Shown one piece after another: positions 2,656 to 60,540 of a DNA stretch of 64,000 nucleotides (position 1 is the first letter of the stretch; the number at the start of each line of letters is the position of its first letter). The position numbers were made by a program, and so were the translations under genes. Below the pieces are notes generated by a model, which did no database searches, was not told the origin of the DNA, and was given only the letters and a program-made list of their open reading frames with translations. This stretch comes from Calvatia gigantea. Its lineage: Eukaryota > Basidiomycota > Agaricomycetes > Agaricales > Lycoperdaceae. Location of the stretch: the NCBI GenBank assembly GCA_025093985.1, contig JACAAK010000020.1, forward strand, positions 62,001-126,000. The letters are read 5' to 3'.

Positions 2656-2824
2656 AGTACTGTTCAACTTTCAAGTACTTTCATATTCTAATTTATTTTT
2701 CCTACTCTCATTTTTCTCACAATTACCTTATTTGAACTTTCTTACTTATTTTCATCCAACATTTATCACTGTTCAATTTTCCTTATTTTCATTACATATA
2801 CCTGTCCATTTTTTATCTACAATT

Positions 2825-5646: not shown

Positions 5647-5805
5647 ACTTTCAAGTACTTTTCATATTCTAATTTATTTTTCCTACTCTCATTTTTCTCA
5701 CAATTACCTTATTTGAACTTTCTTACTTATTTTCATCCAACATTTATCACTGTTCAATTTTCCTTATTTTCATTACATATACCTGTCCATTTTTTATCTA
5801 CAATT

Positions 5806-8183: not shown

Positions 8184-8212
8184 ACTTCACAGACTCAATA
8201 GATGCACAAATT

Positions 8213-24216: not shown

Positions 24217-24334
24217 ATGTCCAGCCCTATCAAGAAAACTGCCATGGAGAAACAGGCTGAGCTGGAGGCCATGCATGAATACAAGCAGCTTAAGCTGGAA
24301 AGGCAAGAAGAGGTAGAATGGCAGGCCAAATGCA
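24217..24334 (+). pseudogene. 5' fragment of the antisense accessory gene (old G3 copy)
   Basis: From the ATG at 24217 it reads MSSPIKKTAMEKQAELEAM and continues as a charged helix, homologous to the first 40 codons of the gene starting at 27232 on the other strand. It runs antisense to its own element, 151 bp from the LTR, and is cut at 24334 by the inserted younger G3 copy. Confidence 0.7.
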
Positions 24335-24340
24335 AGATGG

Positions 24341-25956: not shown

Positions 25957-26077
25957 TTTTTTTTCCTTACTTAAATTTCTTTCACACTTCATTCACACAG
26001 ACAAATCAGTTTATTGCACATTATCAACTATCAACAATTATGTAAAGTCCAAAATATGAGGAGAAGACGGCCGCGGA

Positions 26078-27232
26078 TCACTGGGCAGTTTCACCCGACT
26101 CAGCCGCTTCCTCCACTTCTTCCTTCTTTTCCTCTTCACTCTTGTTTCCATTGTCTTCCTCTATCTCCATTACTACCTCCATTTCCTCCTGGGTTTCACC
26201 CGGTGTGTGGGCCTCCTCATTGTCATCCTCGTTGTCATCATCATTGTCAGCCAGCCCCAGGGCATCCATCACCTGCTGAACCATCAGTCCAATGCTGCAC
26301 TGATACCCACTGTTCTTGATGACTGCGGCCTCAACATTCCTCCTGAGCTCATTCGCCTGCTCCAGCCAGCAGCAACTGCTCCTCTCCAACCTCAATCAGC
26401 CAATCCGTCCTCACCCCTTGATCCTCCATAATGGACGCGATCCGCTCCAGGATATCGTTTTGGCGAGTAAGGAGAGCCGCGAGTTGATCATTGCTGACCC
26501 TGAGATACTTGGGTGGCGACAGTGATCGGCCGATGACGGGCGGGTGGAAGGCGACAAGCCTTCTTCGACAGCGAACATTCGAGGCACTTGGTGACCTCGC
26601 GACTAGAACGGCCATTAGCACAATCACTGGGAAGCTAAGTGCCACTTACCTTGACGTCGACTCCCTGATTGTGCAAGGATCACCGTTGTCGAGACATCGC
26701 TCGCACTTATTATGGCCACCCATCTTGACCTTCTTTCCGTCGACTGCAGGTGGCTCGTCCTCGCCCGATTCCCTCCAGTCTGGGTCTGGCTTGCCCCCGA
26801 AATCCAACTCTTCATCGACGTGTCTCCTTTTTAACGATGGTGGCGCCTTCCCAACCCACTCCTTCGTGATCTTCCGTTGATGTCGCTTCTCGGCCGCTAT
26901 CTTTTTATCCGCGTCATCAGCGGCCTTACGCTTTCCTTCGCGTTTACTCGCCCGCAGCCAACTCTTCACGTTGCTCCTCCTCCCGCGCCTCTTGTTCCTC
27001 GCTGTTCCTTCCTCTCCCATGCCTCTTGCTCCTCCCACTCCTTCTTTTCCCGTGCTTCTCGTTCCGCCCGTTCCTGCCTTTCTCGCTCCTCGCTCTCTTC
27101 CAATTCGTGCAGCTCGCGTTCTGCCTGCCGTTCCGCCTCCTCCTGCCTTTCCAGCTCGAGCCGCTTGCATTCGCGCATGGCCTCCAGCTCGGCCCGTTTC
27201 TCCACGGCAGTTTTCTTGTTGGAGCTAGACAT
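26078..27232 (-). CDS. Antisense accessory gene of Gypsy G3: coiled coil, acidic, six-cysteine protein with a 47-bp intron
   Basis: This gene lies between pol and the 3' LTR, on the strand opposite to the element. From the ATG at 27232 the first 80 residues are an E/R/Q coiled coil. A frameshift near 26980 leads into a basic stretch, then KCERCLDNGDPC (C-X2-C-X6-C). A GTAAGT donor at 26649 and TTCTAG acceptor at 26603 define a 47-bp intron with branch-like GCTAAT; splicing joins it to KCLECSLSKKAC (C-X2-C-X6-C), 13 residues after the previous Cys. After a small indel near 26545 come a leucine-rich helix (NDQLAALLTRQNDILERI) and an acidic tail to 26078. AATAAA on the minus strand lies at 26015-26010. 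The homologous gene at 52996-54157 has the same layout. It could be a DNA-binding or regulatory protein; the function is unknown. Indels break it now. Confidence 0.6.
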
Positions 27233-27380
27233 GGGAGTGGTCGAGGTGGTGGTTAGAGTAGAGAATGGGACCGTAAAATTTCCAAGGTGACGGAATTTAC
27301 ATGCACCATCAAAAGTCTAATTGGAGATTCCCACGGTTCGATTTCACGGCCTCGAGGGCTCGGCCCTAATGGGGGGATAC

Positions 27381-27926
27381 TGTCATGACCGCGCACGTTC
27401 GCCTGCTCTCATCCACTTCCCCCGCTCGTAGTCATCGTTACCTTAGTCCGGCTGCATTGGGTGCTCTTCATTCTTTCTGTCAGTCGGTCTGATATCCTGT
27501 TTTCCATCTTAATCTCCATTCCCTTCAACTTCTCCGCTATCGCCTTATAGCTAGAACTCGATCCTGGTGTCTTGTTAGACGGCCGTCCTCGGCGGCTGTC
27601 CATTCTTCGTTCACCATTACTTTCGTACTTCCCGCTTTTCAGACTAGTATATAAACCTAGTCCCCATGCTTGTAAATCCTCAGTCTGATTATCGACCACG
27701 ATTACGCCCTCTGATTCTGTTCCTCTCTGTCTCTGTTCCTCCAACCCTCTGACCCCACTCCCTCCTGAAATACGGACTTCGACGACAGCAGGAAGGCGCA
27801 ACACATACGTTGAAGCCGCTGAGTCCAAATCTCGTACTCGTCCGAATTCACCCGCTCCGTACGTTCTCACCCGACGTCACCTGGCGGCTAACCTCGGCCG
27901 ATATCCTGCATAACCCGATCGTAACA
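27381..27926 (+). mobile_element. 3' LTR of Gypsy G3, young plus-strand copy
   Basis: 546 bp from TGTCATGACCGCGC to GATCGTAACA, CpG-rich, with TATA box GTATATAAACC near 27648 and AGTCTGATTATC about 34 nt downstream. The polypurine tract CCTAATGGGGGGATAC directly precedes it (27365-27380). Confidence 0.88.
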
Positions 27927-39694: not shown

Positions 39695-40103
39695 TGTTAA
39701 GACGAGTACACCACGGTAGCTTGCGCTAGTGGCGGAGGGGAGTCGTACTCACTGGGTTTGTTGAGATATTGATTATAGACCGTTGCTAGAGGATATTGGA
39801 GTGGAATGATGGGCAGAAGAATAGACTGGATTGTCTAAAGAATATACGCATACTACATAGGTCTTATATATCTAATGTCTCTGGTCTGTGCGCCATTCTA
39901 CCTAATACAGGTGAGGTCTTATCTGCCAGTAGCATATACAGAGCATACTGCGTACATTGTTCTACTTAATAGACCATGACCAGCAACCTAGAGCGCGGTC
40001 TAGTACATTGTTCGTTATCTCTCTTCAAGAGTGAAGTACTCAAGAAGCCGTTTCAGCTATAAATAGACTGAACCAACGTAGTGGTACGGATCGAGATTCA
40101 ACA
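39695..40103 (-). mobile_element. 3' LTR of Copia C1
   Basis: 409 bp reading TGTTGAATCTCGATCC...CGTCTTAACA on the minus strand. A TATA-like CTATTTATAGC is at about 40057-40067 (minus). The polypurine tract next to it (minus, about 40104-40128) reads CTCCCTCCTTCAAGTGAGGAGGAGT, with GAGGAGGAGT directly at the LTR. Confidence 0.92.
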
Positions 40104-40128
40104 CTCCTCCTCACTTGAAGGAGGGAGA

Positions 40129-43100
40129 TTAACGTTTCATCGATTGAGCGGCTTTATCCCATGCTTCAATATCGGAACCGAAAACTAGTCCTAACTCAGG
40201 ACGGAAGAGATTGATTTTGGTTACGCCAAGATTCTTTGTAAAGATATCGGTGGGATTGTCTTGTGAAGACACATCACCAATAACAATGATACCCTCCTCG
40301 ACCAATTCTCGCACGTAGTGGTAATGAATATCCACGTGCTTCGATCGTTTTTCAACAATGGGATTTTCAGTCCAGAATTTGGACCCATCATTGTCGCCGT
40401 AGAGAATGGGAGTTGGGTGCTCGATATTGAGCTCCTCCAGAAGCTGTGACAGCCATTTCACTTGACGTGAAGCGTCAGACAGTTCTTTATATTCCGCCTC
40501 GGTGGACGATAGTGAAACCGTCTTTTGTCGCCGTGAAGTCCAGGTTACAGCACCGGACGCGATCATACAAACATTTCCCGAAACGGATCGGCGGGTTTCT
40601 GTATCTTGAGCCCAGTCCGAGTCACTGAGGCATTCCAGCGTCACCGCGGATTTCCCAGTATCGCCTTCATATTTCAATGCATAGTTCCTTGTCATAGACA
40701 AGTACTTTAGTACATGAATTCCAGCGCGATAGTGCTCAGGAGTTGGGTTAGCGGCATGTTGTGCCAGCTTAACTACGGCAAAGGCTATGTCGGGCCTAGT
40801 ACCGATCATCAAGTACATTAAAGATCCAACCAATTGTTGGTACTTTTGATGGAAGGGGTGCGATGCAGTTTCCTTATTCGTTACGAATTGGAAGCCAGCT
40901 GGTAATGGTGTTTTAGCCGCGGCAGACTGCGGAACCTGGAAGCGCTGCAAGATCTTATCCAGGTATTTAACCTGTTGGATGAAGATTTGACGCTTGGAGC
41001 GATTCCTGGAAATTTTCATCCCAAGGAATTCTTCACAGGGACCATGGTCTCTGCATTCCCACTTTTTCGTGAACTTTCCCTTCAACTCATTGAGGAGGGG
41101 GGAGTTTTTCTTTCCCAAGAAATTCACGTCATCAACATAGACAATGGCTACTACTAGCTCTTTCGTCTTTGGATGTCTGTGAAAGTATACAGCGTAGTCG
41201 GATTTGCAGCGGGTAAATCCCAGCTCAATCATAGATTGATGCAATTCTTTCCACCACTGGCGACCAGCTTGTTTAAGGCCGTATATCGCTCGTCTAAGTC
41301 TCCATACTTTTCCCTCCTGCCCGGGAAGTCGAAACCCTTCGGGCTGTTCCATGTATATTTCCTCATCCAGTTTGCCATAAAGATAGGCAGTTTTTACGTC
41401 AACGCTATGCATATCCCAATCGTGGATTGCAGCGAGTGCAAAGCTTACACGTGCAGACTCGTAGCGGACAACTGGTGAGAAAAGCTCGTTGTAATCGATG
41501 CCTTCTATCTGCGAGAACCCCTTCGCAACTAAGCGAGCTCGCAGGCGGCCATCAGATTTCTCGAGAAATACCCAACGGTTTTTAACCGTCCTCCTTCCTT
41601 TCGGAAGATCTACTAATTCGTACACCCCGCGTTTCTTCAACGCTTCGAGTTCCTCGATACACGCAGCCATCCATTTTGCCTTGACAGGCTCAGGAAGCTT
41701 AAGCATGTCACGGAAAGTTTCAGGTTCTCCGTGTGCGGTGTTGTGTACCGTCTGTATCAAGAAATCGATCAATTTTACTCCTCCCTCAGCGACAAGCCTT
41801 TCAATGTCCATATCATTAACATCATGAGATGTCGGATCATTGTTTTCAGGCATAGGCGGCAGTTCTGGACGTGGAGGGAGCTGAAATGGAGGCATATCAA
41901 AGGGTCGTGGCGGGTACCGCTCAGCACGAACTCTTTGCCTCACATATTCAGGATGATTAGTCCTTGCTCTTCGCTCTCGAATAATTTCGTCCGGAGGGGC
42001 ATTGGCGCGTACGCGCTGCCTTTGCCTCTGCTGCTCTTGTCGGTGAGTCCGATCTATTTCTCTTTCAATTGAAATTGGATGCCGATTTTCTCCATATGTA
42101 TTACCCGGTCTAACAGGAGGCCTGCCTTGTCGTTCAGAACGACGCGGCTCTACCTGATCAGAACTGACAGCACGACGTTTTGGGACAGGGATTGGGAATT
42201 CTTTGTTCTCGGTATCCCATACATCTCTGTCCACATGCCAATTATCACGTACATCAGGTTCCTCCTCAACGGTCGTTCCACGCGAAGGTGGCGACTCAGG
42301 CGGGGGAACCCAAGGTGGCGTATTGCCAGGTGATGGCCGTCGTAAATTTATGCTGTCCGGCGGAGTAGACTCTCGCCGGGGTAAAGGAGGTGCAGGCGGA
42401 GAATATTTCGGTTTAAGTGGTGGAGAAACTGGGGGTAACAATATTGGTTGATCAGGTGGAGGTGGAACAATTCCAGCGTCATCCGAAGATGGCGGAATAG
42501 GTGGTTCATTTCCTAATCCTGGTCTAGGCAGATTTCTCTCTCCTCCGTGATTAGGCCGGTTACTGCTATCCGGCACTGAATCGGGGCATTTAGGGAAATA
42601 TCCCTCGTCGAACAAGGCGTTTGGTGATATGAAGATCACATTGCCTGCCGTGTGCCGCATAAAGACGTAATTTTTACTGCCTTTGTATCCAAGAAAGATC
42701 ATCATCTCGGATTTTGCGGACAATTTGTTTGGGCGGATCTCATCGGGTAGATATACATACGCGCCGCATCCAAACACACGGATATGGGACAAATTAGGTT
42801 TCACCTTCGAATAACACTCAAAAGGTGTCTTCCACTGTAAACGCTGGACTGGTGTGCGATTGTATAAATGCACAGCTGTATTCAACGCAAATTCCCACCA
42901 CGAGTCAGGTAGACATGCCTGTAGCCTTATAGCTTGGGCTTTCTCGTGTAGGGTGCGGTTCAGTCTCTCTGCTCTCCCATTTTGCTGATGTGCATAGGGA
43001 GCAGTGGTTTCGTGGGTAATTCCACGCGCCGAGAGCCCTGCCAATAGCTTTTCATTGACATATTCTCCTCCATTATCGGTGCGAAGTCGTTTGACGTGCA

Positions 43101-43629
43101 TACCGGAGAGGTTCTCTAACGCACTGATCAGCTGAATCAGCTTTTCAGAAGCCTCAGACTTCTTTCGAAGGAGGACTATATGTGCGTGAGAAGAAAAGTC
43201 ATCAAGGAACGTCATGGCCCATTTATATTTATGGTAGCTCATGACGGGCAGTTCCAGCAAATCTGAGTGACATAGCTCTAAGACTGCGGAGGCTCGCTTG
43301 GAGTTAATCGGGAAGGGGTTATTATGCATTTTCCCCTTGGCACAGCCGTCGCAAATGCCTTTCCGAGTAGATGGCGCGGGAATCGACGCGATGCCCTCAA
43401 CGTGCTTTGGAAGCTCGGAGAGCGCGCGATCCGAAGGGTGTCCCATTCGACGATGCCAATCGATATAATCAAGTTGGCGTAAAGTCAACGCTACTGGTTT
43501 CTCCTTGCTATTTTGCAAGACATACGTGTGCACCGTATGTACATTGTTTTTAAACAAACGATGAGGCCAGGCGGATATTACTGCTCTTCCTGATTTATCA
43601 CGGATGGTGGTTCCTTTCACGGTTGCCTC
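40129..43629 (-). CDS. Copia C1 pol: integrase, reverse transcriptase, RNase H
   Basis: Open for about 1,166 codons after the TGA at 43632-43630 and in the same frame as gag-PR. Numbering from 43620: GAG-pre-integrase with its zinc pattern (HRRMGH to CDGCAKG, about 52-100), and integrase core with LELCHSDLLEL, FLDDFSSH, LRTDNGGEY and HQQNGRAERLNRT (about 115-235). A proline-rich and R/Q-rich linker spans about 340-600. RT has VKTAYLYGKLDEEIYMEQP and the catalytic YVDDVNF near 826. RNase H has SDSDWAQD, STEAEYKELSDA and VDIHYHYVRELV, and the ORF ends at 40129 just before the polypurine tract. All catalytic motifs are present, so this half looks functional. Confidence 0.95.
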   Translation of the reverse strand, partial: EATVKGTTIRDKSGRAVISAWPHRLFKNNVHTVHTYVLQNSKEKPVALTLRQLDYIDWHRRMGHPSDRALSELPKHVEGIASIPAPSTRKGICDGCAKGKMHNNPFPINSKRASAVLELCHSDLLELPVMSYHKYKWAMTFLDDFSSHAHIVLLRKKSEASEKLIQLISALENLSGMHVKRLRTDNGGEYVNEKLLAGLSARGITHETTAPYAHQQNGRAERLNRTLHEKAQAIRLQACLPDSWWEFALNTAVHLYNRTPVQRLQWKTPFECYSKVKPNLSHIRVFGCGAYVYLPDEIRPNKLSAKSEMMIFLGYKGSKNYVFMRHTAGNVIFISPNALFDEGYFPKCPDSVPDSSNRPNHGGERNLPRPGLGNEPPIPPSSDDAGIVPPPPDQPILLPPVSPPLKPKYSPPAPPLPRRESTPPDSINLRRPSPGNTPPWVPPPESPPSRGTTVEEEPDVRDNWHVDRDVWDTENKEFPIPVPKRRAVSSDQVEPRRSERQGRPPVRPGNTYGENRHPISIEREIDRTHRQEQQRQRQRVRANAPPDEIIRERRARTNHPEYVRQRVRAERYPPRPFDMPPFQLPPRPELPPMPENNDPTSHDVNDMDIERLVAEGGVKLIDFLIQTVHNTAHGEPETFRDMLKLPEPVKAKWMAACIEELEALKKRGVYELVDLPKGRRTVKNRWVFLEKSDGRLRARLVAKGFSQIEGIDYNELFSPVVRYESARVSFALAAIHDWDMHSVDVKTAYLYGKLDEEIYMEQPEGFRLPGQEGKVWRLRRAIYGLKQAGRQWWKELHQSMIELGFTRCKSDYAVYFHRHPKTKELVVAIVYVDDVNFLGKKNSPLLNELKGKFTKKWECRDHGPCEEFLGMKISRNRSKRQIFIQQVKYLDKILQRFQVPQSAAAKTPLPAGFQFVTNKETASHPFHQKYQQLVGSLMYLMIGTRPDIAFAVVKLAQHAANPTPEHYRAGIHVLKYLSMTRNYALKYEGDTGKSAVTLECLSDSDWAQDTETRRSVSGNVCMIASGAVTWTSRRQKTVSLSSTEAEYKELSDASRQVKWLSQLLEELNIEHPTPILYGDNDGSKFWTENPIVEKRSKHVDIHYHYVRELVEEGIIVIGDVSSQDNPTDIFTKNLGVTKINLFRPELGLVFGSDIEAWDKAAQSMKR

Positions 43630-45015
43630 TCAAACGTAGCCGTTCCGAAGAATCTGGCCCGAGGACATTAACCGTTCTGTGATTTCTTTGATGTAAAAGA
43701 CCGGCGCAATACATGAAGTAGCGCTCTTGGACTTTCCCTTGTCTGTCACGTCATGCTGGAAAATCACAGACCCTCGTCCTGTCATTTCATAAATCCGGTT
43801 GCCAGCGGCTTGTATAAGCCCGAAATGGCCCATCTTTACCTCTGCGAAATCAGAGAGATAACCGGTGACATGGTACGATGCTCCTGAATCAAGGAGCCAG
43901 TCTGCGTTATTCACTGAATGTTTATTCCCTTCTTCTCGACACTTTTGGCATTGAGACAAATCACAAATGTGATATGTGATGATCTGATTAAGATCCTCAT
44001 GCTCTTCGTGGAGATCTGATCTTAACTTGTCTGAATACTCGTGATTATTCACGGTATATGTAGCGTTCATCTCACTTTCCAGCTTAGTTATACCAGCGGA
44101 ATAAGCAGAAGGGGAAGCGCCTTGGGCGCGCTTCCAGCATACATTGCAGTTTAAGAAGTCCGTACAGCGATGTCTACGACGAGTCCCTACAGGAGGCGGA
44201 CGACGTGCTACATCTGCATAGGTGCCCCGCTCTCTTCGGCGGCCACCTGGTCGTCCCAACTCAACCTCGGAATCTCCAGGGCGTCCCGCTCCGAGGCGGA
44301 CAGACCCTGCGTCTGTATCGTTCCGTCCCATCCGTTGATGGGGCTGCACATCATCTTCTGCGTCAGAACAAGAATAGTAGTCAGTTGAAGGTACTGACCC
44401 ACACCCTCCGTCGGAACCGTAGTCGGTGTCCGAGTCGTTGTCATCTAAGACCGACTCTAGGACTGACTCGATTTCCTTCGGTGCCTGCTTCTTCTTGAGC
44501 GGCTTGGGCTTCTTGATAATCGCCGGCTTGTTATACACAGGTGCCGGCCACACGATCTCGTCTTCCTCCCTTGTGACGGTGGATGGATTATTATCGACAT
44601 CCATCTCGTCAAAGCGCTTCCACATCTCCTCCGAACTCTCGCCCGACGATGAAATCGAATCGAGACGTTTGTCCCAATTCTTCAAGGCGGTAACCTTGGC
44701 TTTTACCGAAGGTTTACGACGAGCTTCGGGCTCGGGCGCAGTGATGCGCGACGCGAGCGGAGTGGCATTACTGCCAGTGGCAGCTGAGTTAGAAGCAACT
44801 GGAGGTACTTTGGCTCGACGCGTTGCTTCTACAAGAGCACGGGTGGATGGTGGCGGCACAGTTTGTGCCTGCGACACGAAGTCCACGTCCTGGATATAAC
44901 CGGAAGAAGTGGCGGCGTTGCCTTGCGCACCTCCCTCCTTTCCCTTTCCCTTTCCTTTCCCTCGAGGGCGCCACCGGCGTTTCTTTTCGCCGTCGCCTTC
45001 TCCTCCAGACGGCTT

Positions 45016-45046
<31 letters not shown>

Positions 45047-45903
45047 TGGGGCTTTTTAGACCCCGAAGGTTGCTGCTGACCTTGCGGTCGCTGCTGTCCT
45101 CCTTGCTGCTGGCGCTGCTGCTGCTGCTGCTGCCCACCTCCCTGTCGTGGAGTAAAGCGCGCTCGTTGCGCGTGGGCGGTCTGGTTGGAGGCGTAAGCGG
45201 CAATAATGCCGCTTCGGGCCTTATCCCACGTCAGCTCGTGAAGCGACGTGTTCGAAGTGAGGAGTGTCTGAGCTACGTGGCTCAAAGACGGGTGGAGAGA
45301 GTGGAGAAGGATCATTGTCTCGATCTCCGGGGCGATGCCACTATCCATGGCGTCAAGCTGCCCGAAGATCTGCTGGAGCTCGCTCATCTTGAGCGAGGGA
45401 TCACCACCGAGGGGGAGCTCAAACGTTATCGCGCGAATGAACTCGTTATAAACCTGAGCTGGTCCAGGAAGGCCATATTGGCCCTGCAACTGAGACCAGA
45501 GAGCGCGAGCGTCCCGGGCGGAATGCTTGAGCATGCTGTTGGGGAGAGTTGCCTCAATCAACCCAAGGGCGCGCATCCGGAGGTTGTTGGCCATACCAAC
45601 ACTGCGGCGTTCCTCAGCAGTCACAGGAATAGGAGTTCCTGGTCGTGCGGGACGTGCCGGCGAAGTGGAGGTAGCCGGGACAGCGGGGTGCTCAGGTCCA
45701 TAGGCCTGCTCGTATTGGACTGGCTCGTCCAAGGCTCCAGAGAAATCCCATCCGGTCCAGGAGCAGTCGTTTAAGGAAATGCACATCAGTGCAGACCGAA
45801 GGCGAAGCGACCAGATAGTGTAGTTCCCCGTCCCAGTAAGGACGGGAAGCTGCCCGCTAGGGGTTTGAACAAAGCCCTGCAGAGCAGGGGCCGGTTTAGA
45901 CAT
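43630..45903 (-). CDS. Copia C1 gag and protease
   Basis: I start at the ATG at 45903 (MSKPAPALQGFVQTPSG) because the N-terminal Copia gag domain begins there (LTGTGNYTIWSLRLRSAL); the frame is open upstream to 45960. Residues about 1-260 form the gag domain (ending in LTWDKARSGIIAAY). Glutamine-rich tracts follow, then a K/G/R-rich RNA-binding patch (WRPRGKGKGKGKEGG) in place of an obvious CCHC knuckle there. A Cys-rich stretch (CTDFLNCNVCWKR, then CDLSQCQKC) lies before the protease active site WLLDSGASYHVTG near residue 665. The frame ends with TGA (GTT TGA GAG) and continues in frame into pol. It is either a recoding site or a single CGA-to-TGA mutation. Confidence 0.92.
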
Positions 45904-46081
45904 ATCTAAGATAGGGTAAACACGCGTTAGCATCATGTAGGACTGCAGTGCGTGATGCACGCGTCACAACATGGGGCAGACTCAGGGATCAAATGGACCA
46001 AAGGACCACCGTCTCCCAGGTTGCGTACGACCGTAGCCTCCTACACTCTACCAGCGTTGCAAACGCGGTTGGAGTGAGCGG

Positions 46082-46099
46082 CGGTCGGGGCCCATAACC
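46082..46099 (-). promoter_or_regulatory. Copia C1 primer-binding site (initiator tRNA-Met half-molecule type)
   Basis: GGTTATGGGCCCCGACCG directly follows the 5' LTR. GGTTATGGGCCC is complementary to the anticodon arm of initiator tRNA-Met (GGGCCCATAACC), the internal site used by Drosophila copia. The tRNA itself is not in this window. Confidence 0.75.
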
Positions 46100-46508
46100 T
46101 GTTAAGACGAGTACACCACGGTAGCTTGCGCTAGTGGCGGAGGGGAGTCGTACTCACTGGGTTTGTTGAGATATTGATTATAGACCGTTGCTAGAGGATA
46201 TTGGAGTGGAATGATGGGCAGAAGAATAGACTGGATTGTCTAAAGAATATACGCATACTACATAGGTCTTATATATCTAATGTCTCTGGTCTGTGCGCCA
46301 TTCTACCTAATACAGGTGAGGTCTTATCTGCCAGTAGCATATACAGAGCATACTGCGTACATTGTTCTACTTAATAGACCATGACCAGCAACCTAGAGCG
46401 CGGTCTAGTACATTGTTCGTTATCTCTCTTCAAGAGTGAAGTACTCAAGAAGCCGTTTCAGCTATAAATAGACTGAACCAACGTAGTGGTACGGATCGAG
46501 ATTCAACA
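46100..46508 (-). mobile_element. 5' LTR of Copia C1
   Basis: 409 bp; I see no difference from the 3' LTR. A 139-bp leader (45961-46099) separates it from the longest gag frame. Confidence 0.93.
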
Positions 46509-49968: not shown

Positions 49969-52237
49969 CTCCTCCTCACTTGAGGGAGGGAAGATTAACA
50001 CTTCAACTATCAAGCAACATAAGTCATGCTCCAAATATTGGAATATTTTCTTCAATGATCAAGCAGCAAGGCCTGACTTTGACATTGGAATCTTTAAATA
50101 GATGAGTGGCAGAGGCCAAGCTTCAAATACCAAAGTCATCAACAAGCAAGTGGATAAATCCAGTATTGGAGTTGGAAAAGAAAAATCTATAGTAGGTAAG
50201 GAATTGATTCTGGTTTCGCTAAGATGCCCTGAAGGAACAACAGCATGATAGTTTTGTAAGGTGGCAACCTTGTGCCAAGCAACAACTTATCTCCAGTTTG
50301 AGTTTTTAACTGTAGCAAGATGCCAGCAAAGTATAGCCTGAATCAATTATCCTGTAACTCAATTAAACTCTTGTATATAACTTGCAATGACTTTTGTCTG
50401 AGAGTAAGAGTAGGATTGCTCAAAGAGCTCCTCCAGAAATTGTAACAGCAGTTCACATAACATGAAGCATTTAAGCAATTCTGTTTTCCCATGTTTGATA
50501 TGAGAAGATGGAGAAAAACCATCCTGCTGATGTGAAAACCTAAGCAATATGCTGGTCACTATCAAGCATTCGAGTGCTGTATATTGTTGAAAGCAGCATC
50601 CTTGTGCCAGTGAATCCAAGGCCACTGTCTACAGCTATAAATTGCCAGCTATAACTATGATGGATCAATCTACTGCAGCATCCCTGTGCCAGTGGGTGAC
50701 GATGCAGACAAGCCATGTTTTGATTTAATAGCAAACCAATTTAATGGTCTCATAGGCGGAAGGGTTCATAAATCCCCTTTTTGATGTATTTTCCCATCAA
50801 CTCTGAAGAGGAGGAGGGAATGGTGAAGTACCCATAAAGTTTTTCCATTAGCTCCTGAAGAGGTGGAAGGATCTAAATAGACCCTATATATTTTTTCTCA
50901 ACTTTGCGAAAAGGAGAAAGAATATAATCCTGAATTCATTTTTCTTTTCAACTCTGAACATGAGGAGAGAGGGATGATTCCCTGGTACACTTTTTCCATC
51001 TACTCATGAAAGGAGGAAGGGATGTGTTCTGCATTGTTTTATCTATGACTCATAAGAGGAGATTGGTACAATTTTTGAAGACTGATGAATATATATTTTT
51101 CCTGCAACAATGGCAGAAAGGAATATTTCAAAACCTATAAAGCTATTTTTTCCTGTAACTCATAAGAGGAGAAAGGGATAGTTCCCTAAGTGAATATGTT
51201 TTTCCTACAACTCATTAGAGGAGGAGGGTACACTTCAAAAACCCCTTCACATTGATGTAGGGTGAGGTTTTTTTGCAGCAGCAACCTTGTGCCAGTGGCA
51301 CAAGGCTATTAACCTTTATTATCTCTGTGAGGTCAATGAAAGTGGTTGGAGAAGTAGTGGATGGAATCCCAGCTCAATCGAATGGTGGCAGATGAAGTCC
51401 AGCTCAGTTCATGGATTGGTATAATCTCTTCCATGAAATGACTAAGTCACTTGTCTATATCTTCTAGTTCTTTTCTTCTTATCTGGTAAGCTGAAGCACA
51501 TCAGATTATTCCATGTAAATCTTTTCATCCAGTCTGCTTTTTTAAGGCAGTTTTATTATCAATGCTTTGCAATATGCAATCAAGTGCAGAATACATGCAA
51601 TCTCAGCGAATAACTGGAGAATAGTTCACAAACATCAATGCCTTCAACTAATGAAGCTTCCACACTACTGGTGTGTGCAGGAAGTAGGTGGTCATCAAGT
51701 TTGGAGTAAGATCTAATGGTTTTTATGCTATTTCCTTGCTTTTTCAGCTAAATCACTTTTATTTCCTCTGCATTGCTTAATGTGTTGAGTTCCTTAACAC
51801 ATGTTACTCAATCATATTGCCTGTATGGGCTCAGAGAGTGTTTATCATGTCACAGATTTGTTGCAGTGCTCATCGTGGTTAAACCAGCAGATGGACTAGT
51901 GTATAACAAAAGCTTTTTAGGGCTAATTCTATGTGTGGTGTGAACTGGCAATTAAGTACTTGTTTTACTGTACTCCTCCCTCAGTGACAAGCCTAAGAAT
52001 GTGTCATGCTCATTGTGAATGGCAGATCCACATCATGGCATAGCAGTTCTGGACTAGAAAGATGCTAGCTCATATAAAGATTTTCTTGAAAAAAAAAAAG
52101 TAGTGGCAATCTTATGCCAGCAATACTCCTCCTACTCACATACTTTTTAGGATGATGTGTCTGAGCATTTTAATGCATGGTCTGGTAGACATTGGTGTGA
52201 GTGTGCTGTCTTTGCCTATGCTGCTCTTGTCAGTGAG
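49969..52237 (-). pseudogene. Decayed Copia C1b internal region
   Basis: No frame remains, but C1 landmarks follow in order: CTCCTCCTCACTTGA next to the LTR (as at 40102), the region around 51500-51600 resembling C1 41340-41450 (CCATGTA, CATCCAG, GGCAGTTTT), TACTCCTCCCTCAG at about 51970 (C1 41774), and TTTGCCTATGCTGCTCTTGTCAGTGAG at 52211-52237 (C1 about 42020-42046). It is very AT-rich with many small indels. The full-length G2 element is inserted at its 52237 end. Confidence 0.6.
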
Positions 52238-52859
52238 TGTTAAGCGCGGGTCACGTGGGTGAGACGACCGGAGTCTAGACGCCCGGAATGATGTGTGGAT
52301 GCGGACGAAGATGGACAAAGCAGGCGAACTCGGGAGGACCATGGCTTCAACATATGTGTTGTGCCCTCCTGCCAACGGGTGGTCCTAACTTCAGAATAAG
52401 GGACAAGGGCAGAGTCAGAGGCGGAGACAGAGACAGAGACAGAGGTAGGATAGAAGTAGCGTGTCGCTAAGTAGATTTCAGACTGAGGATTACAGGCGAA
52501 GTAGCTATGGTTTATATACGCGAGGAAGTGTGGTTCTACAAAAGGAAACTACTACGACTTCAGGTGCGGGCCAGGTATGGCCGCTAGATAAAAACACCGG
52601 GAATGCAACTAGCTAAAAGGAATAAGGTGAAACAGGAACAATATGAATGGTAAAAGGGATTGCAAGGGAAACGGGAGTAGGTATGATGACCGGAGAAATG
52701 TACAAGGAGGATAATTGGAAATTAACGTCAGACATAATAGTAAGAATGGAGAGCGGGGGAGACAGGGGAGAGCAGGTGAGAGCGAATGGTAAATAAAATA
52801 TAAAGTATAGTCTGGGTAAGAGCGGGTGAAGTGGGTGAGCGCGTGTACGGGTTATGACA
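52238..52859 (-). mobile_element. 3' LTR of the full-length Gypsy G2
   Basis: 622 bp, TGTCATAACCCG...CGCGCTTAACA on the minus strand; TATA box TATATAAACC present. More CpG sites survive here than in the 5' LTR. Confidence 0.92.
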
Positions 52860-52995
52860 GTATTCCCCCCTTAGGGCCGAGCCCTCGAGGCCATGAAGGT
52901 GTCGTGGGAAATGGAGTTGAAAAATTTGATGCGGGTATAAGATCCGCACTTTTGAAAATTTTCCTTTGCTTGCCTCTTGACCTCCTACTACCACC

Positions 52996-54157
52996 ATGCC
53001 TCCCAAGACTACTGCCCAACTACAAGCTGAACTCGAGGAGAAACATGAATGCGCCAGACTTCAGTGTGAGCAGGAGGAAGAGGACAAGCGCAGGTTGATT
53101 GTGGACCTCGCCGCTGCTGAAGCCAAAGAAAGAGCGGATAGGGAGAAGCACGAAGAGGAGGAGAGGAAGAGGCGCGATGAGGAGAGGAAACAAGAGGAGG
53201 CAAAGAAATGTGACGAGCAGAAGAAGCGGCTTGAGGAGGCAGCACGTAAGAAAAGGGAGGAGCAAGAGGAGGAGAACATGGAGGAACGACGACGTAGGAA
53301 GAGGAAGGCCCGGGAGGAACTGGTAGCGGGTCCCAGCCGATTGAGGAAACGGCCTGAGGGTGGAGGATTCGGACGAAGAGGACAATGCGCTGGGGTCATT
53401 GGACGAGGAGGAAGAGGAGGAGGTTCAGCTGCAGGTGCGTGTTCCCATAGGTGGGGACAACCCCTGCAAGCGCTGCATTGACATGGGTATCAGGTGTCAA
53501 CCCGGACAGACCTGCTCCAAGTAAGTGCGGCCTCTTCCTGTTGAATATTAAGCTGAGAAGTCCTTAGCCGGGTTACCACCAAATGCGTGACTTGCGTCAA
53601 GGGCAAGCGAAAGTGTGAGCCGCCGGGTGGAAGTGCCAAGGTCTCGAATCCCCACGTCCTCGCATGACATCTCGACCGATTCGTGACCGCACTTGAAGAG
53701 AACACCCTATGCCTCAACGAAATCATCGTTTTATTGCGTCAGCAGAACGCGTGGATGGCACACAAGTCCTGATACCTGAGAACATGATACCCGCAATTTG
53801 GCCGTGATCTTGAGGGAGACCATTGCAAATGGAGAGGAGTTCCGCACCCTCGGCCTGGTGGTGAGTCAACGGGATCCTCAGCACACAGGAAGGACTGAAC
53901 GTTCAGGACAGATTGCAGAACGGCTGCCTGGTGCGGATATCCAACGGCATGTGGATGAGGCGGGTGACATCGACATCGAGGACCAGGGTGAGGGGCCGTC
54001 ACAACCGGTGTGAGAAGGGGGTGAGCAGATGGACTTGGATGAGGAAGAGAAGGGAAACGGTAGTAGTGGAGAGGAAGGAAGTGAAGAAAGTGCGGAGGAG
54101 AGCAGAGAAAAAGAAGACAGTGTGGAAGAGGGTGTAGAAGGGGGCCAGCATGAGGAT
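52996..54157 (+). CDS. Antisense accessory gene of Gypsy G2: coiled coil, acidic, six-cysteine protein with a 47-bp intron
   Basis: Encoded opposite to its element, 136 bp from the 3' LTR. The ATG at 52996 starts MPPKTTAQLQAELEEK; residues 1-105 are a charged coiled coil, then KRKAREELVAGPSRLRKR. A frame change near 53355 leads to an acidic segment (EDSDEEDNALGSLDEEEEEE), then PCKRCIDMGIRC (C-X2-C-X6-C). Donor GTAAGT at 53521 and acceptor CCTTAG at 53567 give a 47-bp intron; it splits a codon after the second base, at the same site as in the G3 gene. Next comes KCVTCVKGKRKC, 13 residues after the previous Cys, and a helix (LEENTLCLNEIIVLLRQQN). An acidic tail (MDLDEEEKGNGSSGEEG) ends at about 54157, after TGA codons at 53665 and 54011 and a frame change near 53775. 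AATAAA is at 54211. It may be a nuclear regulator; the function is unknown. Confidence 0.62.
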
Positions 54158-54283
54158 TGAGGGTGTGCGGGTGAACGCAGCTTTCCTCGCTCCTTGTGAT
54201 TTTGATGTTTAATAAAGTTGCATGTCCAATAATAATAAAAAAAGTCTGTCCATGAATGAGAGTGAAAATAAGTCCATTAAGTG

Positions 54284-57200
54284 TTACAAAGAATGCAAGG
54301 GACCAGGCTTAGCAGGATAAGCTGTATGGAAATCTGCCACAAGTTCAGCTGCATGCTCTAATTCAGTAGCAGGCAGCCAAGAAGACTCTTCTTCAGTATC
54401 CTCATAACCCAACCAAATAACCTTGTATAATAACTTGCAGGCACGTCGACAGTCGATCTTCGAGTCAACAATGCGGGCGATTTCGTACTCCGGCTCGCCT
54501 TCGACTTCAACGGGCAGAGGAGGCAGGTCAGAGCGGCCATCAAATGGGTTAGGTGTGGCAGGTTCAAGCATCGAAATGTGGAATACTGGGTGAACAGCAC
54601 GCATTGAGTCAGGTAAGCGTAGAGTATAAGAAACAGAACCGGGTTGAGCGATAATCTCATAAGGACCCAAATACTTTTCTGAGAGTTTCTTTGATGGTCG
54701 AGTCATGCAGAAGAACTGCGCCTTAACAAAGACCTTTTGCCCAACTGTGAAGTTAGGTGCGGGTGTCCGGCAGGTATCAGCGGATGACTGGTACCGTTCT
54801 TGAGCTTGCTTGATCTCGGATTTGAGTACTGTGTGGAGTTCATCGAGGTCGACGACGAATTGACGTGTGCGTGTGGACACCAAGTCGTGTTCTGGATAGA
54901 CTGTGATGTTGGGATGATAGCCTTTATTAGTGAAGAATGGGGAGACACCAGTAGTGGCACTAGGAGCATTGTTATAGGCAAACTCAGCTAGTGGCAGTAA
55001 CTCAGCCCAGTTGTCCTGCTGGTAGTTGCAGTAGATGCAGAGGTATTGCTCGAGAGTCTGGTTAGTCCGTTCGGTTTGTCCGTTGTCCTCAGAGTGATAC
55101 CCGGAGGTGAAGTGTAACTTCATGTCCAGTGCTTGTCCAAGCGAGTGGAAGAAGTGCGAAACGAATTTGGAGCCGTGATCAGATGTAACATGTTCGGGAA
55201 TGCCATGTTTCGAGAATACATGAATGATGAATAGGGGGGCGAGTTCAGCTGAGGTGATGGTATTGTGAGTGGGAATGAACAAAGATTGCTTGGTAAGGCA
55301 ATCAACAATAACAAGGATAGTGTCGTAGCCGGAAGATGTGGGAAGTTTCTCGATGAAGTCCATAGAGATAGAGTTCCATGGCCATTCAGGAATGGGGAGC
55401 TGCTTGAGGTTTCCATAAGGTCGGTGTCGTTGTGGCTTAGAGTGCATGCAGGTGACGCAGGATTTGCAGAAATCTTTGACTGTCGTGTGGATTTCGGGCC
55501 AAGTGTAATCACGTCGGACTAACTCCAGAGTCTTGTTCTGACCAAAGTGTCCAGAAAGGATGTGATCGTGCTTGTACTGTAGAACGTGAAGTCGAAGATT
55601 GTCAACATTGGGAACGTAGATCCTGTCGTCAAGGCGGAGAAAACCGGATGAATCTACAATCCAGCGTCCTTCAGGTTTGGCTAGGTGTTGAGCCGCAGTC
55701 AGGTCTTGCGGAAGAGATGAAAGGATGTTGGAATGCAGCTGATCGAGGTCAATGATTGTGGCTGCGTGAAGGGAAGGGGTATAAAGATAAGTAGCGCGGA
55801 CGGAGGCTGTGAGTTGTTCATGAGTAAAGACTGGACGGAAGTTGTGAGGATTGACTGTAGCGTAGCTATTATTCCCCCCTTTAGGGTAGACATCCCATCA
55901 TCTAGTTAAAGCGTCGGGCTTCGTACCAAGTTGGCCGGGGTGAAAGTGGATGGTGAGATTGAACTGTGACAAGAATTTGGACCAGCAAGCTTGACGGTGG
56001 GTGAGGATTTTAGTGGTGCAAAAGTATTCCAGATTCTTATGATCAGTGACCACGTCAATGGGAAGGGGAGCACCTTCAAGATAATGCCACCAGATCCTAA
56101 AGGCTTCAAAGATAGCCAGTAGTTCCTTGTCATGTGTGTTGTAGTTCAACTCGGCTGAAGTGAATGTGCAGAAATGGAAAGCCATGGGGTGAACTTCACC
56201 ATCCTCAGTGACGATAGAGAGGATGGCAGCTAGCGCATAGTCAGATGCGTCTGTCTCGATGATGATTTGAGCATCAGGGATCCAGTGGGTCAGGATAGGA
56301 GCAGAGGTGAAAGCGTCCTTCAATGATTGGAAAGCCTCTTGACATTTATCATTGAAGTTCCAAGGAATACCCTTGTGGGTAAGGCGGGTGAGAGGAACTA
56401 CAATGTCAGAGTAGTTATAAATGAAGCGATGATAGAAATTGGCGAAACCTAAGAAGGACTGTATGTCCTTGATCTTCTTCGGTTCTGGCCAGTCTTGGAT
56501 AATCTTGACCTTGTCCTCAGACATCTTGAGACCATCAGGGGAAAGAACATAACCAAGATATTCAACCATGTCAGACTCAAATTCGCACTTATCCGCACGG
56601 GCGTAGAGACCGTTCTGCCTAAGCTGCTTGAGAACCTCGCGGACTTGCTTGCGGTGTACGCTGATGTTGTTGGAATAGATGAGTATGTCATCAAGATAGA
56701 CTGTAACACAGACATCTAAGAGATCTTTGAAGATGTTGTTCATGAACCACTGGAAGGCAGCAGGTGCATTGGTAAGGCTGAAAGGCATAACGAGCCACTC
56801 AAACGATCCGTAGCGGGTTCGGAAGGCCGTTTTCCATTCGTCACCTTCTGCAATGCAGACGAGGTGATAAGCGTGACATAGGTCAATCTTGGTATAGATG
56901 CGGGCTTTGCGGGGTGAATCGAGTAGGTCGGATATGAGAGGAAGGGGGTAGCGATCCTTCTTGGTAATGCGGTTGAGACCTCAGAAATCGACGCATAAAC
57001 AGAGCGAACCATCCTTTTTCTTGACAAAGAGGACAGGGGCTCCGTGAGGGGAGTTGGAGGGGCGGATGAATCCAATAGCAAGATTTTTGTCAATGAATTC
57101 GCGTAGAGCCTCTAGTTCAACCTGAGATAGGGAATAGATGGTACCAACTGGTGGTTGGCCACCTTCTTCGAGATTGATCTGAAGGTCGTACGGCCGATGT

Positions 57201-58042
57201 GGAGCAAGCTTGTCAGCCTTCATTTTACTGAAGACGTCAGCAAAATTGTGGTACTCTTCCGGAATATGGGACCAGTCGTCCTGAGGCTCCTCAACAGAGG
57301 TGGAGGAAGCTGTTATAGATGGGTCATTGAGATTGAGGCTATACTGAACTGAACCAGGGAGGCGAGAGGCACAGAGGAAGGTGGTGGCGTTAACCAGTGA
57401 GATGTGCGGATGAGCCGTGTCAACTGTGCCTGTAACAGAAGTGGCGGAAGAAGCAGATAGTGAAGACTGTGAGGTGACAGATGGGGCAGCTGAAGTGGAC
57501 ACCACAGAGGATGCAGGTACGACTGGAATGGACGCACTGTGAGCAGAAGTGGCAGGAAGTTCAGGCTGAAGCGGTCGGAAAGTGATATGGCCCAGAACCC
57601 AGTCAATCGACAGATTGTAGCGGTTGAGCCAGTTATATCCAAGAACCACAGAGCAAGAAGAGTCAAGCCGGGTGATGTAAAAGTCCAGAGTCATAGATTC
57701 ACCACAGTCAAAGGTAACAGGAAGCTTCACTAGTTCAGTAATGTACGCATTAGACGAGCCATCAAAGAGACGAAGTTCAATAGGAGGAATGGGCGTGGTC
57801 GGGAGATCATATGAATGTACAAAGTCAGAGTCCACGAAGCAATGGGTAGACCCACTATCAACAAGAGCCTTGAAGCGGACAAGATCAGATGAAGCGGATG
57901 AAGAAACAGAAGGGGAAGTGAGATAGAGCTGCAGGGAATTGGGGTTAGAAAGAGCGGAAGCGTTGAGTCAAAAACACTCTGTGGCATAGGTGAGTTCAAC
58001 GCGGTCCTCAGCCTGTGCAGAGTCCTGAGGACCGCCACTCAT
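54284..58042 (-). pseudogene. Gypsy G2 pol: PR, RT, RNase H, IN, chromodomain
   Basis: Starts at ATG 58042, overlapping the gag stop. TGA at about 57967 (TGG to TGA). Protease ALVDSGSTHCFVDSDF (about 57870-57830). RT: KKKDGSLCLCVDF, then TGA at 56981 (CGA), IDLCHAYHLV, and the catalytic TVYLDDILIYSNN near 56690. RNase H: IETDASDYALAAIL and HDKELLAIFEAF (56260-56100). TGA at 55898 (CGA). The integrase is open: HDHILSGHFGQN with CKSCVTC, SMDFIEKLPT, TSDHGSKF (usually DRGSEF), GYHSEDNGQTERTNQT. The chromodomain EGEPEYEIARIVDSK to YKVIWLGYEDTEEESSWLP ends at 54284. Only three in-frame stops separate it from a full pol frame. Confidence 0.92.
55868..55885 (-). other. Candidate central polypurine tract in G2 pol
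   Basis: CCTAAAGGGGGGAATAAT, between RNase H and integrase, nearly matches the 3' polypurine tract CCTAAGGGGGGAATAC at 52860-52876. The G3 copy has the same pair (about 24349 and 27365). It also encodes PKGGNN, so the similarity could be a coding constraint. Confidence 0.45.
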
Positions 58043-59616
58043 TTTTCCGAGCTCTTTTCAGAGCTCTCCCCAATCACTTTGGCCTTGTGGGTGACAGCCT
58101 TTGCAGTCGAAGCGGCTTTCTTCCTACACTTGCTAACCTTGTGGCCGGCGTTGCCACAGAAGAGGCAGAGGTTGTTGTCGAGGCGGCACTTGCGTTCTTC
58201 GGTAGTCAGCTTGCCGTCCTTGCCGAGTTTGTCGGATAAGTCAGGTTTAGCGGGGGAGGACGATTTGGTGGGTGTGGAGGAGGATGGGGTAGTGTTGGCG
58301 GGTTTGTTCGAGGTGTTGCCCTTGCTGCTGCTGTGGTTGGGCTTGTTGCTGTTGCTGTTGTTGTTGTTGCTATTGCTGTTGTTGCTGTTGTTGTTGCTGC
58401 TGCTGGCCTTGTTCAAGAAAGGTCCAGGGTTGTTACCCGACTTCCTATTGAGAGAAGCGGATGCCAATTCGGCCGCTTCCTTCGCATGGGTCTTCTCGCG
58501 TTGACGTTCCCAATAGCGATTATCGAGGATGATGGCTGCTTCACGCATTTTGTTGAACGAGGTGGGCTTGCCATTGGGGCGAGAAGAGAGGGCGTCTTGG
58601 AGACGATCAGGGAGGCCTTTGTAGTAGCAGTAGCAGAGGACGTCATCGCCCCATCGAAGTCAGGACGAGAGCCGCATGAATTCGACATTATAGGTGGTGA
58701 TCTTCTCACCATGCTTCATCTTCAGATTCTCCAGGAGTTCGGCCGATTCGCCCTTCAGGTCGGCTACACCGAAGTTGGTCTTGAGCTCAGTGGTGAACTC
58801 ATCCCAGTCGGTGGACCAGGCATGGGATATGCCTTGAGTCTCTTCCTGGTCGATGCCAGTTTTAAACCAGTGAAGAGCAATATCAGTGAGGAAGGTGAGG
58901 GCGAAGTTGACCTTGGTGGTATCAGATGTGAATTGTGTAGGGTTGGTGCAGAAGTAGAGTCGACATTGGAAAAGGAAGTGAGGAAGGTCATCAGGGTTGG
59001 CACTGCTGAATGGTTTGGGTTTGCGGGCCTTAGTACGGGGAGGTCGAGGAGGCTGGGGCGGCTGAGAGCGGGCACGATCGTCTATGGCGTTAGCGAGGGA
59101 TCTAATAGCACGGGCCAGAGGGCGATCAAGTCCCCAACGGCCGCGTGGCTCACTAGTGCTTGTTTCATTATCACCATCGTCATCATCATCCGATGGTTCC
59201 TCGGGTTCGTCATCGCCTCCAGGCCCATCGCCTCCACCATCATCAGGATTGGGGTAAGGGTAATCGGCATATTCTAGACCATTATTCTGGTCATCACCAT
59301 AGTTGTCTTTATCATTAATACCATAGTCACCACCACCAGGGTAGCCAGGATCTCCAGGTGGGACTGTGCTGCCTACGCTGTTTCCACTATTCAGGCCCCA
59401 ATGTGGGCCAGAGCTATGTTTGGGAAGTTACTCCCAGATTGGCTCTGCGAAGGGGTTAGGGGAGTTTTGTGGGAAGTCGCCTGGAACGGATAGGTGGGAC
59501 CATTTCGATCTCTGAGTTCTGGGGGTGGATTGGGTTGATGAAGGGGTTCGTTTGGGATTGTTGCGAAGGGACCGACGAACAGTTGCGCCAGTCTTAGTTC
59601 TGACAAATGTAGCCAT
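58039..59616 (-). pseudogene. Gypsy G2 gag (minus copy)
   Basis: The ATG at 59616 starts MATFVRTKTGATVRRSL. A TAA at 59430 follows EPIWE; then a G/D/N-rich acidic stretch, the retrotransposon gag domain (PDDLPHFLFQC, NFALTFLTDIALHWF, HGEKITTYNVEFM), a TGA near 58664 (TCC TGA CTT), and RPNGKPTSFNKMREAA. An N/S-repeat tract and the CCHC knuckle CLFCGNAGHKVSKC follow, near 58130-58170. The gag stop TGA is 58041-58039, and the pol ATG is 58042-58040. Confidence 0.85.
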
Positions 59617-59654
59617 AGTAAGTGAAGGAATAGAAATCAACAGCAGGAGTTGGG

Positions 59655-59664
59655 AGTCTGAAAT
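59655..59664 (-). promoter_or_regulatory. G2 primer-binding site (minus copy)
   Basis: ATTTCAGACT on the minus strand, two bases after the 5' LTR; exact complement of AGTCTGAAAT in the LTR (59913-59904). Confidence 0.65.
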
Positions 59665-59666
59665 AC

Positions 59667-60288
59667 TGTTAAGCGCAGGTCACACAGGTGAGACGACTGG
59701 AGTCTAGATGCCCAGAATGATGTGTGGATGTGGACAAAGATGGACGAAGCAGGTGAACTCGGGAGGACCGTGGCTTCAACATATGTGTTGCGCCCTCCTG
59801 CCAACGGGTGGTCCTAACTTCAGAATAAGGGACAAGGGCAGAGTCAGAGGCGGAGACAGAGACAGAGACAGAGGTAGGATAGAAGTAGCGTGTCGCTAAG
59901 TAGATTTCAGACTGAGGATTACAGGCGAAGTAGCTATGGTTTATATACGCGAGGAAGTGTGGTTCTACAAAAGGAAACTACTACGACTTCAGGTGCGGGC
60001 CAGGTATGGCCGCTAGATAAAAACACCGGGAATGCAACTAGCTAAAAGGAATAAGGTGAAACAGGAACAATATGAATGGTAAAAGGGATTGCAAGGGAAA
60101 CGGGAGTAGGTATGACGACTGGAGAAATGTACAAGGAGGATAATTGGAAATTAATGTCAGACATAATAGTAAGAATGGAGAGTGGGGGAGATGGGGGAGA
60201 GCAGGTGAGAGCGAATGGTAAATAAAATATAAAGTATAGTCTGGGTAAGAGTGGGTGAAGTGGGTGAGTGCGTGTACAGGTTGTGACA
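59667..60288 (-). mobile_element. 5' LTR of the full-length Gypsy G2
   Basis: 622 bp; same length as the 3' LTR with scattered C/T and G/A differences, mostly at CpG. The TATA box (GTATATAAACC, minus, near 59940) lies about 34 nt before AGTCTGAAAT. Confidence 0.92.
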
Positions 60289-60540
60289 GTGAGCCAAAAT
60301 GAGTTCTCTTGAAATTTAACACCTAATCCATTATAGTTGATACCTTATAGGTGGCCAGTACAGTAATATAATGTGGCTCAGCCTAGTCAGGTTCAAATAA
60401 TGCAATGCTAATCAACTGGAAACTTTATAATTCCTTTACAACAGTCATTCCACATAAAGTAGCAATACAGAAGTATGGTGTATCTAAGGTGGTAGATCTC
60501 CTTTTTAAGGAAATGTGTATGATAGCATAATATTGGTGGT
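60289..60540 (-). pseudogene. Old Copia C1b sequence resumed, no intact gene
   Basis: After the GTGAG duplication the first 40 bases loosely follow C1 from about 42043 (a CTCTTGAAATT-like word for TTTCAATTGAAATT). The remainder is too decayed to assign. It ends where a G1 LTR begins at 60541. Confidence 0.4.

Follow-up and report, generated by a model that had tools for sequence, protein, structure and literature searches.

A putative antisense accessory gene with a conserved 47-nt intron and six cysteines in two chromovirus families of Calvatia gigantea

Introduction

Why would a fungal retrotransposon carry a gene-like frame, apparently interrupted by an intron, on the strand opposite gag-pol? 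The question is raised by G2, a Ty3/Gypsy element in a 64,000-nucleotide stretch of Calvatia gigantea DNA (assembly GCA_025093985.1, contig JACAAK010000020.1, positions 62,001 to 126,000 of the forward strand; hereafter the window), and by a second element of the same window, G3, which carries a homologue of the gene in a similar arrangement (27232-26078). A preliminary description of the window had proposed a real accessory gene, transcribed from within or next to the 3' LTR, that might regulate the element or read host chromatin state.

Antisense accessory genes are already known. Boty-like elements of Botrytis cinerea contain the antisense gene brtn (Zhao et al. 2011, cited in PMC7264820, PMC8365987 and PMC4227169), and the plant antisense aORFs described in passages of PMC7264820 and PMC11963269 include gene23 of Grande, those of RIRE2 and PvRetro13, and TRP28 of Retand. 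In HTLV, the spliced antisense genes HBZ and APH-2 to APH-4 are expressed from the 3' LTR, and HBZ, a nuclear zipper protein, reduces transcription from the 5' LTR, according to passages of PMC10186651. The function of such genes in LTR retrotransposons is described as open in the review PMC7264820, and the legend of figure 3 in PMC2864245 labels some elements as having an 'add. ORF' whose function is unknown. In the literature searched here, no fungal chromovirus was described as having a spliced antisense gene for a zinc-cluster-like protein. What distinguishes the present case is its conserved intron, its cysteine cluster and a conserved box upstream.

Results

Layout of the elements in the window

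G2 is a chromodomain Ty3/Gypsy element on the minus strand (52238-60288), bounded by a pair of LTRs that are 96.3% identical across 624 nt and flanked by a 5-bp target duplication (Table 1). Pfam profiles give the order, in element sense, as gag, protease, RT with RNase H, and integrase with a chromodomain; since RT, RNase H, integrase and chromodomain all lie between the LTRs, G2 is a chromovirus. The antisense gene sits on the opposite strand between pol, whose stop is at 54284, and the 3' LTR, with its ATG at 52996. In both elements the gene is convergent with pol and stops about 120 nt from it.

Table 1. Positions of the features of G2 and G3 in the window
Feature	Position	Strand	Basis
Target-site duplication GTGAG, left	52233-52237	.	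read from sequence
G2 3' LTR	52238-52859	-	96.3% to 5' LTR over 624 nt; border called by eye
Polypurine tract adjoining G2 3' LTR	52860-52870	-	read from sequence
22-bp box GGCCTCGAGGGCTCGGCCCTAA (element sense), upstream of antisense gene	52871-52892	-	sequence and genome pattern search
G2 antisense gene exon 1, broken: charged coiled-coil-like region, basic patch, first cysteine triplet	52996-53520	+	
G2 antisense gene intron, 47 nt, GTAAGT...CTGAG...TTAG	53521-53567	+	
G2 antisense gene exon 2, broken: second cysteine triplet, leucine-rich helix, acidic tail, stop	53568-54160	+	
AATAAA, candidate poly(A) signal of G2 antisense gene	54211-54216	+	
G2 pol: integrase with H2C2, rve (under its cut-off), Tf2-1-like SH3, chromodomain	54284-55897	-	Pfam profiles
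G2 pol: reverse transcriptase and RNase H	55898-56980	-	Pfam profiles
G2 aspartic protease region	56981-57967	-	Pfam profiles
G2 gag (capsid-type domain)	58660-59427	-	Pfam profiles
G2 5' LTR	59667-60288	-	LTR comparison; border called by eye
Target-site duplication GTGAG, right	60289-60293	.	read from sequence
Third antisense gene, 5' fragment, runs into G3 pol	24217-24348	+	read from sequence
G3 pol, integrase part, split over two frames	24336-25956	+	
AATAAA, candidate poly(A) signal of G3 antisense gene	26010-26015	-	
G3 antisense gene exon 2, broken	26078-26602	-	
G3 antisense gene intron, 47 nt, GTAAGT...CTAAT...CTAG	26603-26649	-	
G3 antisense gene exon 1, broken	26650-27232	-	
22-bp box of G3 element	27348-27369	+	
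G3 3' LTR	27381-27926	+	far end by BLAST extent

Reading of the sequence bears out the position, strand and distances first given for the two genes, their 47-nt GT-AG introns in the same codon and in phase 2, and the AATAAA downstream of each. The third copy said to keep its 5' end is indeed a 5' fragment. At 24336-24339, a minus-strand element, with its LTR and the 5' piece of its antisense gene, abuts the pol of a plus-strand element, a rearrangement. The statement that G2 and G3 each encode the protein does not hold for the window itself, where both copies are broken: when G2 is spliced and read straight through, frame changes and seven stops are encountered, and in G3 both exons contain frame changes. 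The preliminary description must have read across these shifts of frame. Open copies are found elsewhere in the genome.

Two further elements lie in the window. At 2679-10537, a frame for the N-terminal part of a Helitron stands next to two near-identical 720-aa Pif1-helicase frames. These repeat directly at an interval of 2.98 kb, their 300-nt samples being 100% identical; either a Helitron was duplicated in tandem here or the assembly is at fault. A Copia element at 39695-46399, with long open gag and pol frames and direct repeats whose 300-nt samples are identical, is apparently a recent insertion.

Copies across the genome

The 46-Mb genome (77 contigs) contains 38 DNA matches to the G2 antisense gene and 41 to that of G3, window copies counted. 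The G2 alignment comprises 33 rows (the window copy and 32 of 37 other matches, with five partial matches left out), and the G3 alignment 39 rows (the window copy and 38 of 40 others, with two pieces left out). Most copies of both families are decayed. With no base changed, 3 of the 33 G2 rows (371 aa) and 5 of the 39 G3 rows (367 or 372 aa) can be read through the whole spliced frame; one of the three open G2 copies, L013, is without one cysteine. AATAAA occurs in the stretch past the gene in 27/30 G2 rows and 37/37 G3 rows. Decay in the aligned rows is mainly C to T at CpG, with 8.7 (G2) and 9.2 (G3) changes per site summed over rows versus 0.7-2.3 in other sequence contexts, a pattern that suggests cytosine methylation or a CpG-directed mutation process.

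The gene is linked to pol. Among 79 candidate G2 pol ends, 40 were scored (one short piece among 41 listed rows being omitted), and 37 of these face an antisense gene on the opposite strand within 1.8 kb. Conversely, 36/38 G2 gene matches have a pol neighbour and 37/41 G3 matches adjoin a pol end within 1.3 kb. The gene matches lacking a scored pol neighbour, two of G2 and four of G3, are all partial or truncated.

In 20 other Gypsy loci of this genome, hand-chosen from two pol comparisons (150 scored of 919 and of 937 candidates), a pattern scan over 4 kb from the pol end on found no antisense cysteine-intron-cysteine pattern; such a scan misses decayed copies and some of the 20 are decayed, while a like scan with other settings recovered both G2 and G3 in the window. 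These loci are 34-44% identical in the pol end where a value was listed (17/20). As far as tested, the antisense gene would thus be a trait of one chromovirus clade. No relatives were seen among viral contigs (65 pattern matches, none confirmed), phages or PDB sequences, collections where little fungal DNA is expected. Among other Gypsy loci of the genome, L092-L096 and L099 have long sense-strand frames after pol (471-570 aa), which in L092 and L096 end in zinc-knuckle-like cysteine/histidine repeats and there apparently represent a sense accessory ORF.

A conserved intron

All aligned copies having the region keep the intron. In G2 it is 47 nt long in 32/33 rows and 48 nt in one, with a GT start and an AG end in 33/33; in G3 it is 47 nt in 38/39 rows, that is, in all having the region, with a GT start in 37/38 (one has AT) and an AG end in 38/38. 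A branch-point-like CTGAG or CTAAT stands 11-12 nt ahead of its end. Cysteines 3 and 4 flank the intron in G2 and G3 alike: it falls in the eighth codon past cysteine 3, in phase 2 and, by hand count, 23 nt after the third cysteine codon. The lack of likeness between the two intron sequences, noted earlier, is seen again here, as they differ past GTAAGTG. In L079, a G2 copy that has diverged to 77% identity, the intron is likewise 47 nt long and reads GTGAGT...TTAG.

A 92-aa query spanning the junction found no intron-less G2 copy in the genome; it matched G2 copies as two pieces, and the few longer matches (to residue 40-42) continue into stop-bearing intron sequence. This is expected if the intron is antisense within genomic RNA. 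Sense genomic RNA carries the intron reversed (ending CT-AC), so that it should stay unspliced there and persist through each round of transposition. From these features, splicing of an antisense transcript appears highly likely.

When the whole window was scanned for a pair of cysteine triplets with a short intron between them, only the G2 and G3 places fitted. The scan also turned up 15 intron-less matches: a cluster of 14 that overlap one another in a single stretch of low complexity (58314-58433), plus another at 48774-48688. Forty first-order Markov sequences gave no match of either kind, intron-bearing or intron-less; this control does not model low-complexity sequence, as the 15 intron-less window matches against none in the Markov sequences make clear.

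The encoded protein

The G2 and G3 proteins share one order of parts: a charged N terminus, a basic patch, acidic residues, six cysteines, a leucine-rich helix and an acidic tail. Within the N-terminal ~115 residues 66% are E, K, R or Q, and we read this region as coiled-coil-like. The basic patch, RKRPRVED in one protein and KRRRVDE in the other, occupies an equal aligned position and to us resembles a nuclear localization signal. The cysteines follow the layout CX2CX6CX13CX2CX6C in both proteins, in agreement with the spacing originally described, and their codons are retained in 26-32 of 32 G2 rows and 36-38 of 38 G3 rows.

The two proteins are otherwise strongly diverged. In a global alignment 110 of 336 aligned residues are identical (33%; z 7.6 over window-shuffled sequence), whereas the adjoining pol end is about 80% identical between the families (mostly 76-85%). 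The similarity between the proteins exceeds that of all 200 whole-protein shuffles, and for the cysteine-helix core it exceeds 500/500. BLASTP of the whole G2 against the whole G3 protein yields only a 20-residue match (E 0.014), and when the two are compared in six frames, significance is reached for exon 1 (E 2e-4 to 3e-4) but not for exon 2 (E 0.3-0.6).

A profile search of the cysteine region, proposed at the outset, did not place it in a known family: Pfam Zn_clus (PF00172) scores 7.2-15.8 bits against a cut-off of 21, with the first triplet aligned to a later part of the profile. Gal4-type clusters have their basic residues in the first cysteine triplet, and the Zn(2)-Cys(6) linker is usually shorter than the 13 residues found here. 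The first triplets of the G2 and G3 proteins are CKRCIDMGIRC and CERCLDNGDPC, and the basic residues sit in the second, CVKGKRKC and CSLSKKAC. Because of the score under the cut-off and the basic second triplet, the protein is best termed zinc-cluster-like rather than a member of PF00172, with which it shares the six cysteines in the form CX2CX6C...CX2CX6C. There was no Pfam match to a bZIP domain in the antisense protein.

Selection on the spliced frame

Substitutions were put on gene trees by parsimony, and the ratio of nonsynonymous to synonymous changes (N/S) was compared with the value expected when those changes are reassigned among sites matched for base and CpG context. The test used 30 of the 33 G2 rows (without L033, L035 and L040) and 35 of the 39 G3 rows (without L068, L076, L077 and L078), with pol-end controls of 28 (G2) and 34 (G3) rows. 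On terminal branches the spliced frame is neutral, at 1.00 (G2) and 1.03 (G3), with subsets at 0.97-1.09; these branches mostly represent decay after insertion. On internal branches the ratio in G3 is 0.77 (P 0.002; exon 1 0.82, P 0.03; exon 2 0.68, P < 0.001), and in G2 it is 0.89 (P 0.10; exon 1 0.74, P 0.016; exon 2 1.03). Without CpG-context changes, the internal-branch ratios of the two families are 0.79 and 0.62 (z -1.7 and -2.3). On the older branches the signal of selection on the antisense frame is thus significant in G3, whereas the G2 value as a whole falls short of significance and the terminal branches carry no such signal.

At the pol end the same test gives internal ratios of 0.86 (G2) and 0.80 (G3), neither significant alone (P 0.19 and 0.18), and terminal ratios of 1.15 (G2) and 1.09 (G3); the test is noisy, as the off-frame values of pol scatter from 0.82 to 1.44. 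Older branches of the antisense gene therefore seem constrained, clearly in G3 and weakly in G2. Within families, the gene looks to have been kept about as strictly as the pol end, although G2 exon 2 departs from this and the power of the test is modest.

Forward frames 1 and 2 of the antisense gene show no constraint in the branch test. The sense-strand frame with the common wobble position also gives 0.77 in G3, as it must. A sense-strand gene was rejected on other grounds, as in all eight unbroken copies every element-sense frame of exon 1 is interrupted by one or more stops; in exon 2, one element-sense frame is open in one unbroken copy.

A 22-bp box upstream of the gene

The leaders of the G2 and G3 genes are poorly alike save for 22 nt next to the polypurine tract, which match perfectly (Table 1). 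This box occurs at 67 places in the genome with up to two mismatches, 25 of them exact, and its reversed pattern at none. Of these places, 63 lie within 1.3 kb upstream of an antisense gene (30 G2, 33 G3), and 16 of the 79 gene matches are without a box within two mismatches. It is absent from the 20 other Gypsy loci, where the best match to an 18-nt core has 5-8 mismatches. The box may be an operator or promoter of the antisense gene, or a cis-element of plus-strand synthesis; because it adjoins the polypurine tract, it may serve reverse transcription instead.

Discussion

The G2/G3 sequence is very probably a real, conserved gene. Copy number, linkage to pol, retention of the intron and constraint confined to the older branches support this part of the preliminary description well; its further part, a spliced transcript from in or near the 3' LTR and control of the element, is plausible. 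As a whole explanation we favor an element-encoded nuclear DNA-binding regulator, to which we assign a probability of roughly 0.55. The gene would be an accessory gene of one chromovirus clade, placed between pol and the 3' LTR and read opposite gag-pol. Its mRNA would start in or beside the 3' LTR, shed the 47-nt intron and end at AATAAA short of pol. The product, a protein of ~370 aa, would dimerize by its coiled coil, enter the nucleus, fold a six-cysteine zinc cluster and bind the DNA of its own element, the best candidate site being the 22-bp box between start codon and LTR. There it would tune transcription of the element, as spliced antisense HBZ does for HTLV-1.

These steps differ in likelihood. 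That the protein is nuclear and binds nucleic acid is a prediction that we hold slightly more probable than not, and that it regulates through the box is a proposal less likely than not. Doubtful to about the same degree, or a little more so, is the fullest version, in which a sequence-specific repressor or activator binds the box shared by G2 and G3 and acts on its own promoter and on the 3' LTR, an HBZ-like arrangement that would have arisen independently in fungi, with the protein diverging fast and the box fixed. Rapid protein change beside a fixed box and a fixed cysteine frame would fit a regulator under conflict. For the idea that the protein reads host chromatin state nothing was found in favor, as the chromodomain sits in pol and not in the antisense protein.

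Comparison with known systems places the gene among antisense accessory genes. Boty is likewise a fungal LTR element with a CHROMO domain (PMC4227169, in the passages cited) and an additional antisense gene, but in another fungus, and brtn is likened here by description, not by sequence. The plant aORFs, as the cited passages of PMC7264820 and PMC11963269 describe them, are also antisense between pol and the 3' LTR and present in most copies; the gene23 protein is nuclear and TRP28 is predicted to bind DNA. They differ in having, where known, a TRP28 or SMC domain rather than a six-cysteine cluster, and the word "intron" is absent from the main text of both papers. The G2/G3 gene agrees with aORF-3R in place and strand and in its presence in most copies; its conservation looks similar to that of the pol end within families (pol control P 0.18-0.19) and far below it between them (33% versus about 80%). 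The HTLV antisense genes belong to a retrovirus and encode a bZIP domain or none, with no zinc cluster reported in the cited passages of PMC10186651, and the likeness to HBZ is at most a functional parallel.

Among the alternatives, a real protein gene with a role other than transcriptional is unlikely, though it fares best. The protein could help the pre-integration complex as a cofactor of nuclear import or of integration, or act as a particle chaperone, and both the basic patch at an equal aligned place in the two proteins and the charged, coiled-coil-like N terminus would suit such roles; a passage of the aORF review also takes up nuclear entry of the pre-integration complex (PMC7264820). 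Particle accessory proteins, however, are normally made from genomic RNA, and a separate antisense mRNA would better suit a regulator.

Less probable by a good deal is that the antisense transcript itself acts, through dsRNA, silencing or interference with pol transcription, the frame being incidental. The gene does converge on pol, stopping about 120 nt from it, and dsRNA-mediated control is raised in a passage of the review (PMC7264820), but the constraint on older branches falls in the codon positions of the spliced frame. This favors selection on the protein, as does the retention of the cysteines and of the intron position in two families whose proteins are 33% identical.

Capture of a host gene, or a nested mobile element, carried as a functionless hitchhiker is more improbable again. 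Zinc-cluster genes do occur in this genome (19 matches) and most copies of the antisense gene are decayed, but the gene is present in nearly all scored copies of two families, the few matches without a scored pol neighbor (2/38 and 4/41) being partial or truncated, and internal branches show constraint. Moreover, the 19 zinc-cluster matches do not coincide by place with the antisense genes, and the protein searches listed element copies. A chance open frame, opposite a sense gene or in a low-complexity region, has very little probability: GAG codons abound in the region, so that few stops fall on the complementary strand, and first-order Markov controls understate low-complexity matches, but two families with differing intron sequences share the cysteine layout and the place and length of the intron, their protein similarity lies above all 200 whole-protein and 500 core shuffles, and the window scan and the stops in the sense frames also speak against it.

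If the regulator reading is correct, the intron would mark the product as coming from the antisense strand only. In one genome, the elements thus offer an antisense accessory gene with a conserved intron, conserved cysteines and a candidate binding box, along with eight unbroken copies among 72 aligned rows. Its expression, splicing, DNA binding and effect on the LTR are directly testable, and the box is the most testable lead.
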